Below are positions 5,113 to 43,583 of a stretch of 54,432 bases of DNA, piece by piece. This DNA is from Acidobacteriota bacterium (lineage in GTDB: Bacteria > Acidobacteriota > Blastocatellia > Chloracidobacteriales > Chloracidobacteriaceae), in NCBI GenBank assembly GCA_016208495.1, contig JACQXX010000036.1, forward strand, positions 1-54,432. The letters run 5' to 3'. Made by a program: the position numbers and the translations under genes. The notes beneath the pieces are model-generated. The model was not told where the DNA came from, did no database searches, and saw only the letters and a list, made by a program, of their open reading frames with translations. Position 1 is the stretch's first letter; each line of letters starts with the position of its first letter.

Positions 5113-5632
5113 GTTTAAACTCCTTTCAGGGTGAGGGCTGAGAAAACCAGGGCTCAGGGCTTGGGGCGGAAGACTCGCAAGCTCGGAGCAATCGAAGGGA
5201 TGAGGGATGAAGGATGAGGGATGAAATAAAACCAATTCTTCAACCCATCGTCTTCAGCTTTCACATATAGATTTTTGATAGCGCTGCAGTGGGACGAGAT
5301 CTTGTGTGAATTGGATTGAGCATCCCGAAGGGTTGCAGTTCGGATAGCCGGTTGGTTGCGAGGTTTTGGGAGCTACCACCGGGAAAAGTTGCTTCTCCAC
5401 CTCCGCGCGAGCCGCGCCCGCAGGGCGCGGCTCGCGCGGAAAAAAGAATCGGCCACCGGATCCGGTGGTAGGCCCAAAGCGGCCAACCGACCGGCTATCC
5501 GAACTGCAACTCTTCGTGGTGCAAAACCAAAAACCGACACATGAAAGCTTAGGGCTGAAGACTTGGTTTTATTTCATCACTCATCCTTCATCCCTCATCC
5601 CTTGAATTGCTCCAAGCCCGCTGCCTTCCGCC
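5113..5632. other. Intergenic region with heptamer repeats and MITE-like copy A
   Basis: The 520 bp between AAA-1 and the TerF-like gene hold four GGGATGA-type heptamers (5197-5224), a truncated palindromic element (5312-5528) and a second heptamer block in the complementary sense (5574-5601, TCATCCC/TCATCCT). No gene is supported. Confidence 0.65.
5312..5528. mobile_element. MITE-like palindromic element, copy A (truncated ends)
   Basis: Inverted arms carry GTTGCAGTTCGGATAGCCGG on the left and its complement on the right, with CCACCGG inner boxes. The centre is a perfect 17-bp stem (5403-5419 with 5423-5439) around a GCA loop. It belongs to the same family as 16985-17331, 20064-20287 and 43312-43583, but lacks the outer TTAGGGAGCGT ends seen there. 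Confidence 0.75.
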
Positions 5633-9309: not shown

Positions 9310-10899
9310 TTAACGGTCATTTCGCGAGCGGGATCGCTTCCCTGGTTGAGCCAGGATTTCATCTGCGAAGAATTTTGCCGCATTGCTGAGCAAAGTTTCA
9401 CGCCGGGTGGTTGGGTCATACTTGTCAATTTGCCTGAGCAGAGTTCGTTTATCGGATTTTTCCAGAACTTCGCGCGCCCGTCGGCACCACTGCTCCTGAT
9501 CCTCGGTGGAAAGGCGCTCCAGGACCTGATAAGCGGTTTCCTTGGCGGTTTCCTCCTTGGTCAGGACCGCAACCGGCGCGGGTTCGTCAAAGGGCAGCAG
9601 GCTGGATTTGCCCGATGAGGTTGGTTTCCCTGATTTCCCACCGGTTGTGATGGCAAGTTCGATGTACTGGCTGATGCCGGCCAGGTTTTGGACTTCAAAA
9701 CCGGTTTTTTGGGCAGCAGTTTGAGCAAATTCGACCACGCGTTTGCCGTCGTCCACCGACAGGTTGTATTTGCTGATCCACCCCGACGCCAGCGAGATTT
9801 CCTTTGCGGTCGGTTTGCGTTTGAGGTCAAAAATTTTCAGGAAGTGTTTGACGAAGCGCTCGGGTTCGGCCAGCGTCAGATGCCGCTCCGCCGTGAATTC
9901 CGGCACGTCCAGTCCGGCATTGCCCACCAGCAACCCGGCCTGGCTGCCGAATAATTCGAGATCGTCGAGGTTGATCGTGATTTCGGAAGCTTCAGGTTGG
10001 GCTTGAAGGCGCTTTTTGCGGGCGATGAGCTTGTAGTCAGCCTCGTCGGCCTCGATCAGTTGCACCGAAAGCACGCCGTCCTGGATCGGAAGCCCTTCGA
10101 GTTCGCTGATCACGTTTTTGAGGGCCGTCACTCGAAGCGAAAGTTTCTGGTAGCGTTCTGACAACACGCCCATTTCCTCGAACAGCTCTTTGGTTCGGCG
10201 CTCGTACTGGTCAATTCGAAACAGCTTGGGTTCGATGAGTTTGTAGACCAGTTGCGAAATGCCACTGCGAAACCCCAGCAGCACTTTGGCCCGCGTCGGG
10301 AGCGAGTAATTCAGCCTGAGATTCATTTCGATTCGTTCGTCAAACACGACCCGGACGGTCTCGCGAACATTTTTTCCTTCGCCCCGGCTGATGAACTCCA
10401 AGGTTGATAAAATATTGAAAAGACTGATCTTAGACAGTGTATTGCGCTGATTTTTGTCGTAAAACGAGTTTTCCCAGGTGATGTTGACCTTCTTGAGCCG
10501 GGCGAGGGATTCGCGAATGGCCTTGCGCGAATTTGACCCGTAGGGCTTGCCCAGCACCTTGAGCAACTGGCGGATGGCAAAGGTCAAAACCCTGGGCTTG
10601 CCCTGCGACTCCCACAGGTAAATCAACCCGTACAGGGTTTTCTGGTCCTCGGTCGTGAGATTGCCAAGCACTTTGTCGGCGCTGAGTTCGACCCGGGCCA
10701 CAAGCTGGCTGCCATTTGGGACTGAAATTTGTTTGACCAGCGTGCGGTCGTCGAGGACGGGAGTTCCCTTGGAAAGCTGCCAGATTGAGGGCCAGCGTTC
10801 GAGGTTGAGTTCCGAACGAATCAACGTTTCATTGGTCAGGTTTTGTTTTTTGGTGTTTTTGGGGTCTTCAAACAAGACCTCCTGGATTGAGTCCGTCAT
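9310..10899 (-). CDS. Plasmid-type replication initiator (Rep) protein
   Basis: 529 residues from ATG 10899, preceded by a strong GGAGGAGG site; the frame is open for 60 more codons upstream but without coding character. Residues about 60-290 read like the winged-helix part of iteron-binding initiators: 'LTTEDQKTLYGLIYLW', 'FAIRQLLKVLGKPYGSNSRK' (helix-turn-helix-like with basic residues), 'ESLARLKKVNITW', then 'SLPTRAKVLLGFRSGISQLVYKLIEPKLF' and 'YERRTKELFEEMG'. The C-terminal 200 residues are less typical and end in a basic KRSRSRNDR tail. The strongest support is position: the gene reads away from a dense iteron array that begins about 325 bp upstream. Its product would bind the iterons, open the origin and recruit helicase. 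I cannot assign it to a named Rep family from sequence alone. Confidence 0.78.
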   Translation of the reverse strand: MTDSIQEVLFEDPKNTKKQNLTNETLIRSELNLERWPSIWQLSKGTPVLDDRTLVKQISVPNGSQLVARVELSADKVLGNLTTEDQKTLYGLIYLWESQGKPRVLTFAIRQLLKVLGKPYGSNSRKAIRESLARLKKVNITWENSFYDKNQRNTLSKISLFNILSTLEFISRGEGKNVRETVRVVFDERIEMNLRLNYSLPTRAKVLLGFRSGISQLVYKLIEPKLFRIDQYERRTKELFEEMGVLSERYQKLSLRVTALKNVISELEGLPIQDGVLSVQLIEADEADYKLIARKKRLQAQPEASEITINLDDLELFGSQAGLLVGNAGLDVPEFTAERHLTLAEPERFVKHFLKIFDLKRKPTAKEISLASGWISKYNLSVDDGKRVVEFAQTAAQKTGFEVQNLAGISQYIELAITTGGKSGKPTSSGKSSLLPFDEPAPVAVLTKEETAKETAYQVLERLSTEDQEQWCRRAREVLEKSDKRTLLRQIDKYDPTTRRETLLSNAAKFFADEILAQPGKRSRSRNDR

Positions 10900-10919
10900 C
10901 AACCGATTCCTCCTCCGAA

Positions 10920-10936
10920 AGACCCAACCGGGGTCT
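10920..10936. promoter_or_regulatory. Small inverted repeat in the rep leader, possible operator
   Basis: AGACCC (10920-10925) and GGGTCT (10931-10936) pair across five bases about 20 bp upstream of the rep start. Iteron-type initiators often repress themselves through inverted half-iterons. GGGTCT resembles the iteron's GGGTCC, so this may be such an operator, but six-base arms can arise by chance. Confidence 0.25.
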
Positions 10937-11034
10937 GCGCTGCCCGAAACGAAAAATGTGTTGTGTGGAATGACCCGGCTATTGAACCACCATGGGTTTT
11001 GTTGAATCAAGCCAGGATAAGAACTTGTTTCGGA

Positions 11035-11143
11035 AATAAAAACAAAAAAAGAAAAAGAAAAAAGAATAAAAACACACACACACTAACACACACAAAAGCG
11101 CTTCGCGCGCGTGCTCGCGCGCATGCGCGTTGTGTGTGTTTAT
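11035..11143. promoter_or_regulatory. A-rich tract plus CA/CG alternating hairpin, likely part of the replication origin
   Basis: An almost pure A tract with a few G and C (11035-11070) is followed by (CA)n, then alternating CG/CA DNA (about 11097-11131) and TGTGTGTGTT (11131-11140). CA- and TG-rich arms can pair, and the purine-pyrimidine alternation favours Z-DNA. It lies between rep and the iterons, where a DNA-unwinding element is expected. Confidence 0.5.
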
Positions 11144-16898: not shown

Positions 16899-17709
16899 GA
16901 GTGAGTGAAGAGCAAAAAAGCGAGATAGTGAGTAGCGAGGTAGCGAGTAGCCAACCCAACTACGTAAACCAGCAGACTCAGCCGCGCTTAGGGAGCGTAA
17001 AAAAACAACTTCTTGTTTTCGTTTGGGAATCAGGCATTTGGATTGAGCATCCTGAAAGGCTGCCGTTCGGATAGCCGGTGGTTGCGAGGCTTTGGGAGCT
17101 ACCACCGGGACCGATTTGTTTCCCCAGTCTACCTCTCCCCGCTTCGCCCGCGCCCCGCAGGGGCGCGGGCGAAGCGGGGAGAAACAAGAGGAATGGCCAT
17201 TGGATCCGGTGGTAGGCCCAAAGCGGCCAACCGACCGGCTATCCGAACTGCAACGCTTCGCGGTGCAAAACCAAAGCCTGGGCGTGACAGAACACCCACG
17301 CCCTCAGGAACTTATTTTTTAACGCTCCCTTACTTTTACTGCCGGGTGCCGACCAAAGCCCCAAAAAGTACACTGAAAAAGAGCTTTCAGGCAACAAGTC
17401 GGAAGTTTCTGTTAAGGAAAAAAGGACTGAGTTTAAGCCTTTGCCGGGTTATTTGCTGGTAAAGTGAAACAGAAGAATGGTTGAAAACTTGCTTGTTTAA
17501 AAGACAACCCTTTAGAAATTAAGGAGATAGTCTGTTCATAATTCATAATTCATCATTCATAATTTCTAAAAACTGGTCAAAGGTGCGGTGGCGATGGTAG
17601 GCTATTGAAAGAATCAAACACAACCTGCCCTCCTTCCCCTGGAGTCCTGGGTTGCCCCACAAAAGTCCTTATCTGGCACTCATCTCAACATCTGGATGGA
17701 TCAAATTTT
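16899..17709. other. Divergent intergenic region between AAA-2 and acyl-CoA reductase
   Basis: Contains a degenerate GCGAGTA heptamer stretch (16919-16950), MITE-like copy B (16985-17331), and four TTCATAA-type heptamers (17535-17562). Promoters of both divergent genes must lie here, but no confident -35/-10 pair can be picked by eye. Confidence 0.6.
16985..17331. mobile_element. MITE-like palindromic element, copy B (most complete)
   Basis: Outer inverted ends read TTAGGGAGCGTAAAAAA and TTTTTTAACGCTCCCTTA. Inside lie the family arms (TTTGGATTGAGCATCCTGAA, CGGATAGCCGG) and a perfect 23-bp central stem (17134-17156 with 17160-17182) around a GCA loop. It has no open reading frame for a transposase. 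Confidence 0.8.
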
Positions 17710-24871: not shown

Positions 24872-24901
24872 AGCGCCGGTTCAGAGGAGCGTTGCTGGCT
24901 A

Positions 24902-24938
24902 AAATCCCCGTTCCGGAAAATTTCCGGAACGGGGATTT
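24902..24938. terminator. 37-bp palindrome copy 1, acting as terminator
   Basis: Two perfect 18-bp arms flank a single central A; the core CCCGTTCCGG...CCGGAACGGG is followed by a T run. It begins 31 bp after the sensor-kinase stop. The same 27-bp core recurs at 25761-25787 and 28757-28783. Confidence 0.8.
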
Positions 24939-25073
24939 TTGAAATCAATTTCAGTCTAAGTTATTGAAAAATTTAGCTTTCAAAGAAATTCAATTCTTTT
25001 CGTTTTGAAGTTTTCTTTTCAGTGAATTTGTAGTTCAATCTCTGACATTCATCAACAGGAGAATTAAGAAACT

Positions 25074-25676
25074 ATGGCTCATTGTATCTCAAGGTGTGGA
25101 TTGGCAGGTTGGATATCCCCAATCATTGGCCGAATTTTGCTTGGAATGCTAGTTCTGGGTGGATTCTGGATCGCCACCTCGCCGATTCTGGCTCAAAACC
25201 CGTCCCCGAAACCTTCCGGTGCTGAGTTTTTAAAAGAAATCAATCGTGATGTCTGGATTCCATTTTCAAAAGCGTACGCCACAGGTGATGCGGAAGCCTA
25301 CCTGAATTTACATTCCAAGGATTTGATTCGAGGCCAGGGAAACAGCCGGGAAGTGTTGAATTTGACGCAATATGGCACCGGTATTCGCAATTTTTTCAAG
25401 AAGGTCAAAACTGACGGTGGAAAACTGGGAATCAGTTTCCGGTTTCAGGAGCGGATTGCCAATGCTGAATTTGGATCTGAGCGAGGGTTCTTTGAGTTCA
25501 GCTTTACAAATGCCAAAGGCGAGACGCGCAAGGCATACGGCAAGTTTCATGTCTTTCTGCGCAAGGAAAGCGGCACCTGGAAAATCCTGGTGGATTACGA
25601 TTCCAACGAACAAAACACGATTACCGAAGCCACCTTCAATGCGGGAACGGCCCTGGATGATGTGGCAAAATATTGA
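25074..25676 (+). CDS. Secreted NTF2-like (DUF4440/SnoaL-type) protein
   Basis: 200 residues with a signal peptide (hydrophobic 19-37, ending PILAQN). The mature part follows the SnoaL/DUF4440 pattern: an initial helix, 'WIPFSKAYATGDAEAYLNLH', a middle 'FRFQERIANAEFG', and closing strands 'GKFHVFLRKESGTWKILVDYD'. Proteins of this fold bind small molecules or act as stress-linked periplasmic proteins; no catalytic residues can be assigned. The ATG is preceded by AGGAG about 12 bases upstream. It stands as a single transcription unit between two stem-loops, with a strong terminator downstream. The larger secreted protein at 32531-33451 carries related patterns. Confidence 0.82.
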   Translation: MAHCISRCGLAGWISPIIGRILLGMLVLGGFWIATSPILAQNPSPKPSGAEFLKEINRDVWIPFSKAYATGDAEAYLNLHSKDLIRGQGNSREVLNLTQYGTGIRNFFKKVKTDGGKLGISFRFQERIANAEFGSERGFFEFSFTNAKGETRKAYGKFHVFLRKESGTWKILVDYDSNEQNTITEATFNAGTALDDVAKY

Positions 25677-25705
25677 TCCACTGATATGAACCTGGATTTT
25701 TGTTC

Positions 25706-25738
25706 AAGCCTTCGCGGTTATTTCAGCGAAGGCTTTTT
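25706..25738 (+). terminator. Rho-independent terminator
   Basis: A perfect 10-bp stem AAGCCTTCGC (25706-25715) / GCGAAGGCTT (25726-25735) with a 10-nt loop ends in a T5 run, 29 bp after the NTF2-like gene. Confidence 0.9.
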
Positions 25739-25756
25739 CATTGCTGGTTGATGTGG

Positions 25757-25791
25757 TTTTCCCGTTCCGGAAATTTTCCGGAACGGGAAAA
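25757..25791. repeat. Palindrome copy 2 (CCCGTTCCGG family)
   Basis: Core 25761-25787 is the same 27-bp palindrome as at 24902, with central T and TTTT/AAAA flanks instead of the AAAT/ATTT-type flanks of copy 1. It lies past a terminator already sufficient for the upstream gene, so termination may not be its only purpose. Confidence 0.75.
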
Positions 25792-25952
25792 TTGAAAGCG
25801 GCAATACCAGGAATCAAAGCCGTATTTGCTTATAAATCAATTTGTTGACGACGAATTGCTACGAAGGTGAGCCATTTTCAATATTGCAATTCCAGTTGAA
25901 AGGCAGGATAGTTGGGGGAGCTTCATTTCATCTCTTTTCGACTGAGGTTGGT

Positions 25953-26852
25953 ATGGTATTTTCCCGAAAGCTCGGTCTTTTGACCTTGATGTTGATTTTG
26001 ACTGGATCGTTCTCGGTTAGTTCCCTGGCTGTCCAGACAAAAGGCCAGAAATCGGTTTTGTTCTGCGTCCAGAGATATGAAGATGGAAACACGGCGATGG
26101 AACCGATAGTTGTTCTTTCGGGTGGAAAATTCCTGGCTCCTCCAACCGGTATCGAAAGCACGGAAGACCTGGCCGCCCAGGATGCCGAAAGCGTCAAATT
26201 TCTCAAGAATTACTATCGAAAAGGCCAGACCTACCGGGTGGTATTTGGGACTGCCGAAGATGGAACTGTAGCCGTGATCAAGCCTCAGGAATCAGGGTGT
26301 GTATCCTTATCCGCCCAGGTTTCAGTTGCCAGCAGCGTGAAGCTCGGCGGTCGAGTCTATGCGTTGGCGACTGATCACCCGACACTCGGCGTCGGAAAAA
26401 AACGTTCACGGCGGGCACCCACCCCTGATGAACGATCTGCCGCCATTGCCGTTGCCAAAGACTTTTTGCGGGTTAAAAAAGTGCCCGCCGCACTGATGAA
26501 ATTGATGCAGGTGGGAAATCTCACCGCAGTTGATTTGAACGGCGATGGAAAAGATGAGTTGGTGGGGAACTTCGAAATTGACCAATCAGACGCGACTCTT
26601 GAGGCACGCTCACTTTTCTTGATTCTCAACCCGGTCGGAGTTGAGTTCCAAATTGCCTACTCTGATTATCAAAAAGGCGGTGGCGACCTGTTTCAACGAT
26701 CAATTTTTATTGACCATCTGGATCTTGATGGAGATGGCATCAGCGAAGTCATTACTCAAACGTCCTATTATGAAAGCCTGTCCTATAGCATCATCAAAAA
26801 TAAAAGTGGGAAATGGGTCAATGTCTACACCGGCGGCGAAAGTGGATGCTGA
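25953..26852 (+). CDS. Secreted protein with FG-GAP/VCBS-like Asp motifs
   Basis: 299 residues from ATG 25953, preceded by GAGGT; 37 upstream in-frame codons lack coding character. A signal peptide covers about 1-28 (LLTLMLILTGSFSVSSLA). The C-terminal half has two calcium-binding-like acid loops of the FG-GAP/VCBS type, 'VDLNGDGKDELVGNF' and 'LDLDGDGISEVI', each followed by a strand pattern typical of propeller blades. The N-terminal half (30-170) is unrecognised. Only two blades are visible, so the domain is partial or divergent. It is likely exported; function unknown. Confidence 0.8.
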   Translation: MVFSRKLGLLTLMLILTGSFSVSSLAVQTKGQKSVLFCVQRYEDGNTAMEPIVVLSGGKFLAPPTGIESTEDLAAQDAESVKFLKNYYRKGQTYRVVFGTAEDGTVAVIKPQESGCVSLSAQVSVASSVKLGGRVYALATDHPTLGVGKKRSRRAPTPDERSAAIAVAKDFLRVKKVPAALMKLMQVGNLTAVDLNGDGKDELVGNFEIDQSDATLEARSLFLILNPVGVEFQIAYSDYQKGGGDLFQRSIFIDHLDLDGDGISEVITQTSYYESLSYSIIKNKSGKWVNVYTGGESGC

Positions 26853-27124
26853 ACAGGTGACAAGGGACAGGGGGACAAGGTGACAAGGTGACCAGGTGAC
26901 CAGGTGACCAGGTGACAAGGTGACAGGGTGACAAGGTGACAGGGTGACAAGGTGACAAGTGACAAGTGACAAGTGACAAGTGACAGGATGACAAGTGACA
27001 GAGTGACAGGATGACAAGTGACAAGGTGACAATTTCTTCAGCCCCGAGCTTGCGAGTCTTCAGCCCCAAGCCCTAAGCCCGAAGTCTTCAGCCCTGAGCC
27101 CTGGTATTTTCAAAAGGAGGCGTG
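26853..27124 (+). repeat. Tandem GGTGACA/AAGTGAC repeat tract upstream of the ADP-ribosylglycohydrolase
   Basis: From about 26857 to 27030 the DNA is built of 7-8-bp units (AGGTGACC, AGGTGACA, AAGTGAC). It is followed by degenerate CAGCCCTGAGCCCTGG phrases that lead into the AAAAGGAGG ribosome site of the next gene. No gene. Confidence 0.85.
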
Positions 27125-28186
27125 ATGAACCGATTGAAACAGGATTTTAGCCATTTTTCCGGATGTCTTATCGGCGGTGCGGTCGGAGATGCCCTGGGCT
27201 GGCCAGTCGAATTTCACAAACTCCATCAGATTCACGAGCGGTTTGGACCGGAAGGCATCACCGATTTTCCTGAAGAAATTGGCCAGGTGACCGATGACAC
27301 GCAGATGACCCTGTTTACGGCGGAAGGGATTTTGCGCTACGTCAATGCTGAACAGGCTGAGTACCCGACTGATCTGGTTCAGGAACTGTATGTTGCTTAC
27401 CTCCGATGGCTGGTCACCCAGGGAAGCCTGGTCAGTGGATCGGCTGATAAATCAATTGTTCGGGATGGATGGTTGTTTTCCATTCCTGATCTGTATCACC
27501 GGCGCGCCCCAGGGATGACCTGCCTTTCGGCCCTGGCGAGTGGAAAATGTGGCACCGTCAATCGTCTATTAAATAACAGCAAAGGATGCGGCGGAGTGAT
27601 GCGGGTTGCGCCTTGTGGTCTGTATGTACGTGGAGTTCAGGCATACGAGCTTGGGTGCCGGGCAGCCGCCATTACGCATAGTCATCCATTGGGATATGTC
27701 ACCGCCGGCGCATTTGCGTTGATGATTGCTGAACTCATTGATGGTGCATCACTTGAATCTGCTATTGGTCGTGGAATTGAGCAACTCTATCGTGACCCGA
27801 TGCTGGTCAGTTCAGAATGTGCTCAACTCCTCGAACGAGCTGTTCGCTTTGCTCAAGAGCTTCCTGGAGACCTGAGTCGGTTGCAGGTTTTGGGTGAAGG
27901 CTGGGTTGCCGAAGAATGCCTGGCGATTGCCGTGTACGCCGCCCTTTCATTTCCAGATAGTTTTGAAAAAGCGTTGATTTTTGCTGTGAACCACGACGGA
28001 GACAGTGATAGCACTGGTGCCGTAACCGGGAACCTGCTTGGGGCATTTTTAGGGATTGATAGCATTCCGGAACCATGGGTACGACGCGTGGAATTTAAAG
28101 AAGTACTCGCGCAGGTGGCAACCGATCTGCTGCTGGCTCCAGACGATCAGGCCGGAAGATTAGAGCGCTATCCAATTTCAAAGTGA
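27125..28186 (+). CDS. ADP-ribosylglycohydrolase (DraG/ARH family)
   Basis: 353 residues from ATG 27125, four bases after a perfect AGGAGG; a GTG at 27122 is too close to the ribosome site. Family motifs are in order: GGAVGDALGWPVEF near residues 18-31, TDDTQMT near 57-63 (first metal ligands), 'GCGGVMRVAP', HSHP, and the C-terminal metal motif DGDSDSTGAVTGNLLGA near 295-311. These residues bind the two Mg2+ ions that hydrolyse ADP-ribose from proteins (or nucleic acid, or free ADP-ribosyl compounds). The length is typical. No ADP-ribosyltransferase is visible in the window, so its partner is unknown. It lies between repeat tracts and converges on parB. Confidence 0.95.
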   Translation: MNRLKQDFSHFSGCLIGGAVGDALGWPVEFHKLHQIHERFGPEGITDFPEEIGQVTDDTQMTLFTAEGILRYVNAEQAEYPTDLVQELYVAYLRWLVTQGSLVSGSADKSIVRDGWLFSIPDLYHRRAPGMTCLSALASGKCGTVNRLLNNSKGCGGVMRVAPCGLYVRGVQAYELGCRAAAITHSHPLGYVTAGAFALMIAELIDGASLESAIGRGIEQLYRDPMLVSSECAQLLERAVRFAQELPGDLSRLQVLGEGWVAEECLAIAVYAALSFPDSFEKALIFAVNHDGDSDSTGAVTGNLLGAFLGIDSIPEPWVRRVEFKEVLAQVATDLLLAPDDQAGRLERYPISK

Positions 28187-28292
28187 AGGATGAAGACATG
28201 AGCGTCAGGATAAGGGAACAGGATGACAGGTAACAGAATGACAAAATGACAAAGTGACAAAGTGATTTCTTTAGATCCCTTATCCTTTCGAA

Positions 28293-28396
28293 AACCCCGA
28301 ACCCCGAACCCCGAACCCCGAACCCCGAACCCCGAACCCCGAACCCCGAACCCCGAACCCCGAACCCCGAACCCTGAACCCTGAACCCCGAACCCT
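28293..28396. repeat. Near-perfect heptanucleotide array (AACCCCG), about 15 units
   Basis: Eleven consecutive AACCCCG units (28293-28369) are followed by two AACCCTG, one AACCCCG and a partial unit that touches the parB stop codon. On the other strand the unit is CGGGGTT. It is the longest of many heptamer arrays in the window. Confidence 0.95.
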
Positions 28397-29246
28397 ATTC
28401 GTTTTCCACCAGTGATGTTTTCGCCAGTTTCAGTGCTTCTTTCAATTGTTTCGATGAAATCGGTTGTTTCGATTGGGTCAATATCACAACTTGAACAGCG
28501 GTTCCATCTTTGAGGGATGCTGTCAGGTTAAAGGCCAGTTCTCCGGCAAAAGATTGTTTCGAGGTCGTGGCTTCTTTTGGTTCGGGTGCTGGGTGCACTG
28601 CTACCTGTTTGGCCGCGGAATTGACCGAAATTTCACCCTGATCCATTGCCCGAATCAGTTCAGGCGATCCGCTGGTGACCACCTGCCTGATCTTACGCAG
28701 GGTTTTTCCAGAGACGCCCACCATCGAAGCAATTTCATCAATTGCTTCGCCTTTTTCCCGTTCCGGAAAATTTCCGGAACGGGGATTTTCAGCGCCTTTT
28801 TTCAAAGCGGCGGCTTTGCGTTCACGGGCAGCACGCTCGGCTTCGGGGAGCAAGGCTTCAGTAATGGCCGCCATTTCAAGCGGGGTAAAGCTTTTTCGGG
28901 CCACATTTTCATCGCGTTCAGCTCGCAGAATGGCTCGGGCGTCTTCGAGCGTTTCAATAATGCGTGCCGGAATGGTTTCCCGGTTGAGCGCTTTAAAGGC
29001 TGCCAGTCGTCGTTCACCAGCAACCAGTGTGTGGTCAGGTAAAACAGTGATCGGATTGAGCAGGCCAATATCCTCAATGCTTTGTTTGAGATCGGTCAGG
29101 TCGCCCATGTCTTTGCGAAAGCGGTCACCAATTTTGACGTCTTCAACTGGGATTGTCACCACGCGCATCGGGGGGCGATGGGCAGCCCGGTTGTTGGCAA
29201 TCACGGTTTTAAGCAGTTCAGGATTGAGTGGAGATTTAACCGGCAT
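28395..29246 (-). CDS. parB: ParB-family partition protein
   Basis: 283 residues from ATG 29246, preceded by GAGG; this start overlaps the parA stop by 11 bp. The upstream start would need TTG. The N-terminal region carries the ParB/Srx nuclease-like box: '[13 protein letters not shown]', '[28 protein letters not shown]', '[17 protein letters not shown]', i.e. the GERR CTP-binding motif and the ENxxR-like box. A helix-turn-helix follows ([19 protein letters not shown]). In the variable linker just before the helix-turn-helix, the residues PRSGNFPER are encoded by the third copy of the 27-bp palindrome. The C-terminus (about 205-283) is less conserved. Together with ParA it should segregate this replicon, loading at parS sites. 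Confidence 0.95.
28757..28783. repeat. Palindrome copy 3, embedded in frame in parB
   Basis: The 27-bp core CCCGTTCCGGAAA-A-TTTCCGGAACGGG is identical to copy 1 and lies within the ParB coding sequence at the linker before the DNA-binding helices. A length of 27 bp keeps the frame. It may be a mobile palindrome that inserted without breaking the gene, or a ParB binding site. Confidence 0.85.
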
Positions 29247-30000
29247 GGCGTACCTCGTCTGCAAACACTTTGAAATCTTCGGCTACGGCATCATTTGGGC
29301 GGTACAAAATCACGGGCAAGCTCGCCGCCTGTGATTCGCCAATGCGCACTGATTTGCGAATAGTTGATTTGAAAAGGTCTTCCCCAAAAGCATTTTCAAG
29401 ATTGAGCCGCACACTTTCCGACAAATTGGTGTGATCTACCCGGCAGCGAACCGCCCGCACCCGACCCAGTTCGGAGTTATAGCTCCGCACATCATCAATC
29501 AATTCAACCAGTTTGGACAGACCATAGAGGCCATAAACCCCTGGATCAACCGGGATCAAGACTTCGTGGGCTGCCACCAGGGCATTGAGGGTCAAGGTGG
29601 CGAGTGATGGTGGCGTGTCAATAATAATGAAATCAACTGGGGTGGCCAGAGTTTGCAGGGCTTTGCGGAGTCGAGTATCGGCACCGACTTTTCCCAGCAA
29701 CTCAATCTCAGCCGCGGCCAGATCCAGGTTGGCACCAATGAGCTTGAGATTTGGCAGGACTTCAAGTGGAGTCAACATGGCCTTTTCCATTGGCCAGTTT
29801 TTGACCAGTACGTGATAGAGCGTCGTTTCAAGCGTGTCAGGCGTGAGGCTGAGCCCCTGGGTCAGGTTTCCCTGTGGATCAGCATCAATGAGCAATACCC
29901 GGTGGGTCGTTGCCAGTACGGCGCCCAGATTTGAGGCAATCGTGGTTTTGCCAACGCCACCTTTCTGGCTGGCAATACAAATAATTCGTGGTTGGTGCAT
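29236..30000 (-). CDS. parA: ParA-family partition ATPase
   Basis: 254 residues, a typical length for short ParA/Soj proteins. The deviant Walker A KGGVGKTT lies at about residues 13-20, DADPQGNLT at about 40-48, and IIIDTPPSL (switch II/Walker B) near 125-133. Absence of an N-terminal helix-turn-helix puts it with type Ib/Soj-like ParA proteins rather than P1-type ones. It is followed by parB with an 11-bp overlap, so the two are co-translated. ParA forms ATP-dependent nucleoid-bound gradients that move ParB-parS complexes. No ribosome site is evident before the ATG. Confidence 0.96.
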
Positions 30001-43311: not shown

Positions 43312-43583
43312 TTTGCACCGCGAAGCGTTGCAGTTCGGATAGCCGGTCGGTTGGCCGCTTTGGGCCTACCACCGGACACAGTAGCCTTCTCCTTTTCCCG
43401 CTGCTGCCCGCGCCCTGCAGGGCGCGGGCAGCAGCGGGGAGAACGTAGGTAACGTGCCTCTCCCGGTGGTCGCTCCCAAAGCCTCGCACCACCGGCTATC
43501 CGAACGGCAGCCTTTCAGGATGCTCAATCCAAAGACTGATGCTTGCAAACAAAAACGGAAAGTTGTTTTTTAACGACTCCTAA
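43312..43583. mobile_element. MITE-like palindromic element, copy D (inverted relative to copy B)
   Basis: Its left arm (GCACCGCGAAGCGTTGCAGTT ... CCACCGG, about 67 bp) is the exact complement of copy B's right arm. The right side ends TTTTTTAACGACTCCTAA. The centre is a perfect 42-bp palindrome (43397-43438) around TGCA, with different bases from copies A and B. It separates the kinase from the phosphatase gene; AACCAAG heptamers follow (43584-43604). Confidence 0.8.

Follow-up and report, generated by a model that had tools for sequence, protein, structure and literature searches.

Candidate parS-type palindromes at a parA-parB pair of an Acidobacteriota bacterium, and palindromes in the linker-coding DNA of phage-type parB relatives

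ParB loading sites have been described within partition genes, including parS-359 inside parB of Bacillus subtilis (PMC4442127), a putative parS in parA of Mycobacterium bovis BCG (PMC2346475) and intragenic parS sites mentioned for P. aeruginosa (PMC4368675). A 2025 survey of ParB-CTPase folds found that orphan ParBs of mobile elements are widespread (PMC12704722). Here we analyze a 54,432-nt stretch of DNA from an Acidobacteriota bacterium (contig C36; "the window" below means this whole stretch), in which a 27-bp palindrome stands three times near a parA-parB pair, once in frame inside parB. Numbers beginning with L, C and G are our labels for loci, contigs and genomes.

Like parS-359, the intragenic candidate site of the window lies within the coding sequence of parB (PMC4442127), but the 16-bp parS of B. 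subtilis is widely conserved (consensus in PMC2346475), whereas in the family described here the sequence varies by gene while staying at one position in the linker. The window also resembles RepABC systems, whose parS sites lie inside or near the partition operon of secondary replicons; those systems use another ParB family, however, and the available text of PMC9040568 does not describe a linker-embedded site. The mobile-element proteins of the 2025 survey, which almost always lack a ParA-binding motif, are similar to the window ParB, but the available text of the survey describes no DNA sites for them, and its main text does not contain the string "palindrom" (PMC12704722). The window ParB further matches the phage ParB-like proteins of PHROG 12047 (1.6e-37); no ParA was found near its viral relatives, whereas the window parA adjoins parB. 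Searches limited to one open-access library returned no described DNA target for this ParB family and no linker-embedded site in phage ParBs.

We consider it likely that the three palindromes are cognate parS-type loading sites of the adjacent ParB, which together with ParA would form a ParABS-like pair on what is probably a secondary replicon. A search of the window allowing up to three mismatches found the 27-bp core CCCGTTCCGGAAANTTTCCGGAACGGG, composed as CCCGTTCCGGAAA-N-TTTCCGGAACGGG, in three exact matches (24907-24933, 25761-25787 and 28757-28783) compared to a mean of 0.00 in 100 shuffles, confirming the three places given in an initial annotation made from the letters alone (Table 1). 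Taken with its right flank, copy 3 is identical to copy 1 along 33 nt; taken with its left flank, it is identical to copy 2 (inverted) along 31 nt. The clustering near parA-parB noted in the same annotation was also borne out, as all three copies lie at most 4.4 kb from both genes and the two intergenic copies 3.4-4.3 kb away from parA. At the same mismatch threshold, the genome (8,375,582 bases, 177 contigs) contains the core only these three times, all at parAB, and no dispersed copies. The 21-nt core was found in 0 of 395 other genomes of the phylum sample and in none of the viral contigs searched. We rejected the possibility that the palindrome is a common motif: an 18-nt core occurs in 74 stretches of the genome-contig collection, and these look unrelated because the CCCG extension is present in none of them and CCG in L130 alone.

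Table 1. Coordinates of the palindrome copies and the associated genes in the window
Feature	Position	Strand	Description
Palindrome copy 1	24901..24939	.	39 bp of perfect symmetry; intergenic, after a kinase gene
Palindrome copy 2	25757..25791	.	35 bp of perfect symmetry; intergenic
Palindrome copy 3	28757..28783	.	27 bp of perfect symmetry; inside parB, residues 155-163
parB	28395..29246	-	283 aa; ParB_N/CTPase-type domain, linker and helix-turn-helix (HTH) region; PHROG 12047 match
parA	29236..30000	-	254 aa; Walker-type ATPase; last 11 bp overlap the start of parB
RPA-like replication initiator	9310..11079	-	weak match, under the Pfam cut-off

The proteins and the layout of the locus are consistent with this assignment. 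ParA matches AAA_31 and CbiA and contains KGGVGKTT, the two genes overlap, and several palindrome copies cluster around them. From sequence and fold, ParB is predicted to combine a CTPase-type N-terminal domain with an HTH region; its relatives by sequence among solved structures are ParB, Spo0J and Noc, and a fold search, with modest TM-scores, also returned KorB. In the structure model, the N-terminal domain is followed by a long helix spanning residues 122-149, then by a loop and the helices of the HTH region. Copy 3 encodes PRSGNFPER, in the linker before the HTH region as originally annotated, and these residues fall in the loop that separates predicted helix 122-149 from predicted helix 161-166. 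We propose that a ParB dimer would read the dyad through its HTH region, close as a cytidine triphosphate (CTP)-dependent clamp, slide off the site and present DNA to ParA. One site would then sit within parB where the code for the CTPase-type domain gives way to that for the HTH region, a point at which a flexible loop may be tolerated, and ParB bound there could repress its own gene. A second inverted repeat in parB, CGAAGCAATT-N5-AATTGCTTCG at 28725-28749, lies 7 bp from copy 3; it encodes the start of the HTH region, and the terminator scan lists it as terminator-like in the antisense direction to parB (+ strand).

The initial annotation had offered a mobile palindrome inserted in frame into parB as its other option. 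Rickettsia-type palindromic elements occur in many dispersed copies, and their insertions are absent from homologous proteins; identical cores in coding (in frame) and non-coding DNA would fit such an element. The confinement of all copies to within 4.4 kb of parA and parB opposes this explanation, as do the lack of further genomic copies and the absence of the core from the other genomes sampled. The linker peptide also looks like a variant of a family linker: related ParB linkers, L216 among them, already read ENFPE or NFPER in the pattern ...ENFPE..KGDTRD..., so residues of this kind are not unique to the window and, as the homologous linkers have them without an insertion, an in-frame insertion is unlikely. 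A listing restricted to linkers that fit a motif pattern gave 21 redundant viral rows. In all 17 rows (partly redundant) with a D or E after ENFP, the codons are GAA AAT TTT CC(G/T), DNA that is itself palindromic (GGAAAATTTTCC), and the four printed ENLP rows do not contain GGAAAATTTTCC. Given the window peptide, codon choice would produce the 27-bp palindrome with a probability of 0.0015; the peptide is therefore one that permits the palindrome.

Among 396 genomes of the phylum, a family search placed the window ParB first (3.7e-37), followed by a match at 2.7e-20. As a query, its sequence found no relatives in the genome-contig collection and one short fragment (L040) in viral contigs, where a degenerate DNA search for the peptide found nothing. 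A 40-aa piece of the linker had no match in phages and, in plasmids, matched only a Bradyrhizobium plasmid and, weakly, Azospirillum. The former is conjugative and comes from Bradyrhizobium sp. Ash2021; its match covers window positions 28744-28784 at 95%, and it carries a single copy of the identical 27 bp. The same 27 bp on a plasmid from a second phylum could be taken to favor a mobile element, but the copy sits at the matching place of an unannotated ParB-like frame. That frame aligns with the window ParB linker without gaps (48% over 64 residues; 22/55 after removal of the nine shared palindrome residues), and the same nine codons would arise by chance, given the peptide, at about 4e-6 (codon usage of six neighboring Bradyrhizobium genes). 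Overall, a mobile element is largely refuted and in our judgment barely credible. The Bradyrhizobium frame itself (L150, 5676-6314, minus strand) shows no evident ParB_N domain by eye, lies near an IS1634-family transposase and looks like a remnant.

What stands out is a general pattern, in which phage-type parB genes often keep a palindrome in the DNA that encodes the linker, with a sequence that differs between genes. Three overlapping alignment-based scans yielded 240 viral loci, in which the same contig sometimes appears more than once; 28 loci without the EN motif were dropped, and the remaining 212 gave 76 non-redundant genes after clustering at 80%. We defined the linker segment as 37 codons starting 25 codons past the EN motif and used 603 equal segments elsewhere in the same genes as controls. 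Perfect palindromes (arm of at least 7, spacer of at most 2) were present in 33 of 76 linkers (16/43 in a first set, 17/33 in a second) compared to 12 of 603 controls, and synonymous shuffling led us to expect about 3.4 linkers in all. With arms of at least 9, the counts were 10/76 and 0/603. In a border-free listing of whole genes, the best palindrome reached an arm of at least 9 in 11 genes, lying in the linker in 10 of them and elsewhere in L269; where the best arm was 8, it was in the linker in 6 of 15 genes. Imperfect dyads with at least 9 of 10 pairs occurred in 34/76 linkers versus 8/603 controls, and those with at least 8 of 10 in 57/76 versus 67/603. The linker palindromes extend to 32 bp (L253), 30 bp (L251), 29 bp (L268), 28 bp (L201), 27 bp (L156) and 26 bp (L155 and L320), and the 33 perfect ones comprise 21 distinct half-cores, with GGAAAA in 8. 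Named-record relatives include phiAH14a, with an 18-bp linker palindrome, and eugene 12A10, with one of 24 bp. In nine chromosomal-type ParB genes or loci, no linker palindrome exceeded an arm of 6. The window ParB and nine relatives tested match PHROG 12047, which is not the best match for all of them. The phage ParB-like proteins of L239 and L204, which carry linker palindromes, also match DNA methyltransferase families. The linker of L254 contains an imperfect dyad with outer arms GTTCCGG...CCGGAAC, the half-site of the window palindrome around a different center.

Several observations bear on whether the signal resides in DNA, RNA or protein. Among maximal inverted repeats in linkers (n=44, spacers of 0-12 searched), the spacer was 0 in 18, 1 in 11 and 2 in 4, so that 33/44 had a spacer of 0-2 compared to 21/80 outside linkers. 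We weighed an RNA-level element, in which the palindrome would act as a hairpin in parB mRNA and as terminators at the intergenic copies. RNA folding predicted strong hairpins for all copies, and a T-run follows copy 1; short spacers, however, are those of a DNA dyad and are not needed by an RNA hairpin, and a scan for intrinsic terminators (a GC stem followed by a T-run) listed none of the three copies. We regard this explanation as very improbable. The proposal that copy 1 doubles as a terminator accordingly survives only as a possibility by eye for that copy, not for copy 2, and is absent from the scan. Conservation of the peptide is also unlikely as the cause of the palindromes, because two pairs of genes share one across different reading frames (GTGGCAACTTGCCAC in L239 and L248, TGGAAATATTTCCA in L315 and L356) and because most of the excess disappears on synonymous shuffling.

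Across 36 genes, similarity between palindromes tracked similarity of the HTH region when the N-terminal domain (NTD) was controlled for (partial r 0.29, p 0.0005), and showed no association with the NTD (p 0.85). The position of the palindrome at a domain border raises the alternative of a recombination seam that promotes swapping of HTH domains between ParBs and is not read by ParB, and a comparison of L155 with L191 (similarity 0.95 in the NTD, 0.60 in the HTH region) would fit such exchange. This would leave both the two intergenic copies and the association between palindrome and HTH region unexplained, and we give it next to no weight.

The remaining alternative is that the palindrome is an operator and not a centromere, with the window ParB and its orphan phage relatives autoregulating their own gene or silencing nearby genes and having no part in partition. 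KorB-type ParBs block transcription of their own gene or silence nearby genes, and the recovery of KorB in the fold search is in keeping with this idea. In 20 whole viral records, which may be fragments, GGAAAATTTTCC occurred once in each of the 10 that have it and not in the other 10, which have other linker palindromes. Further copies of linker palindromes with arms of at least 9 were not found in their own loci (L153-L232 and six named-record loci, L041-L045 and L150), the extra-copy search giving a single match, in L228, at another place. Half-arm counts were raised (at least 4) for 8 of 33 linker palindromes, all with 7-nt arms, for which the count is uninformative, and for none with longer arms. 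As the palindrome is single per record and no ParA was found nearby, a partition role is unlikely to be general among the phages. Palindromes with an arm of at least 8 lay within 500 bp of 1/33 genes with a linker palindrome and 6/43 without, a weak hint of other site positions. At the window locus, however, parA overlaps parB, two more sites lie outside parB at a distance from parA, and the replicon is probably a secondary one. We consider the operator explanation rather unlikely, though the strongest of those set against parS-type sites.

The parS-type option, which the initial annotation had listed as one of two, is supported by three kinds of evidence: the restriction of the genomic copies to parAB, the linker dyads in many relatives, and repeated palindromes at some other par loci. 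On contig C56 of this genome (L401), a parA gene is preceded by three copies of TGTTCCACGTGGAACA, at distances of about 0.1 to 9.6 kb. Two loci of the relative G001 have repeated palindromes as well: in L409, one copy of TGTAAACATGTTTACA precedes parA by 3.3 kb and a second lies near the end of parB, while in L410 both copies of AATGTTGTCATGACAACATT are close to the parB end. The conserved 16-bp parS is not represented on the window contig, where no TGTTTCACGTGAAACA-like site was found at up to two mismatches, while C56 has three.

A number of results weigh against parS-type sites and their linker embedding. In this genome and G001, a further seven par loci (L397-L400, L408, L411, L412) have no repeated palindrome with an arm of at least 7 in the stretches fetched, the one exception being a pair of GC-rich hairpins in L398. 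The window ParB lacks the canonical ParA-binding motif described in PMC12704722, so we make no claim of membership in the canonical chromosomal-type ParABS systems. The match to an RPA-type initiator stays below the cut-off of 27 (23.4 bits in a protein scan, 26.2 bits in a genome search). A palindrome is not vanishingly rare given the peptide, as the probability above indicates. Among the viral relatives, 43 of 76 linkers have no perfect palindrome with an arm of at least 7, per-gene synonymous shuffling gave p <0.05 in only 27/76, and three of five named-record relatives (L043, L044, L045) have no linker palindrome above an arm of 6. A search of the 240 viral loci, many of them redundant and with at most 3-4 kb of flank, returned no ParA-like match. 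The linker segment and thresholds were fixed after the whole-gene listing; the second set, although distinct in sequence, is therefore no blind test, and the fixed borders cut some palindromes both inside and outside linkers. Finally, palindrome and HTH code adjoin, and physical linkage may add to their correlation.

The window contig probably belongs to a secondary replicon, a chromid or megaplasmid, on the grounds that it carries an RPA-type initiator, albeit a weak match, and that RPA is found on the smaller replicon of relatives. The sole plasmid match of this initiator, at 29% identity over part of its length, is a Rubrobacter plasmid protein annotated as replication initiator protein A. 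This genome contains four RPA-like loci, one above the cut-off, the other three being on contigs C91, C80 and C40. Three two-contig relatives carry RPA on their smaller contig, which measures about 1.0-1.1 Mb; we take these two-replicon relatives to resemble Chloracidobacterium. Elsewhere in the window, short intergenic tandem arrays lie at 26850-27030 and 28290-28395, with 8-base GGTGACAA-like and 7-base AACCCCG-like units, and long perfect GC-rich hairpins with arms of 16-21, unrelated to the palindrome, at 5402-5440, 17134-17182 and 43397-43438.

Together our results lead us to lean, by a modest degree, towards a broader proposal: a phage and mobile-element ParB family may encode its own recognition site where the CTPase-type domain meets the HTH region, site and reader being inherited and exchanged as one cassette, with the site changing along with the HTH region and the target of an orphan ParB readable from its gene. 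The embedding of the site in parB looks old: at the linker, phage-type relatives have retained dyads of their own, and gene and site would therefore move as one unit. If the palindrome is the cognate site, specificity could change without loss of the site, because site and DNA-binding domain adjoin in one gene, and the targets of many orphan ParBs would be predictable from sequence.

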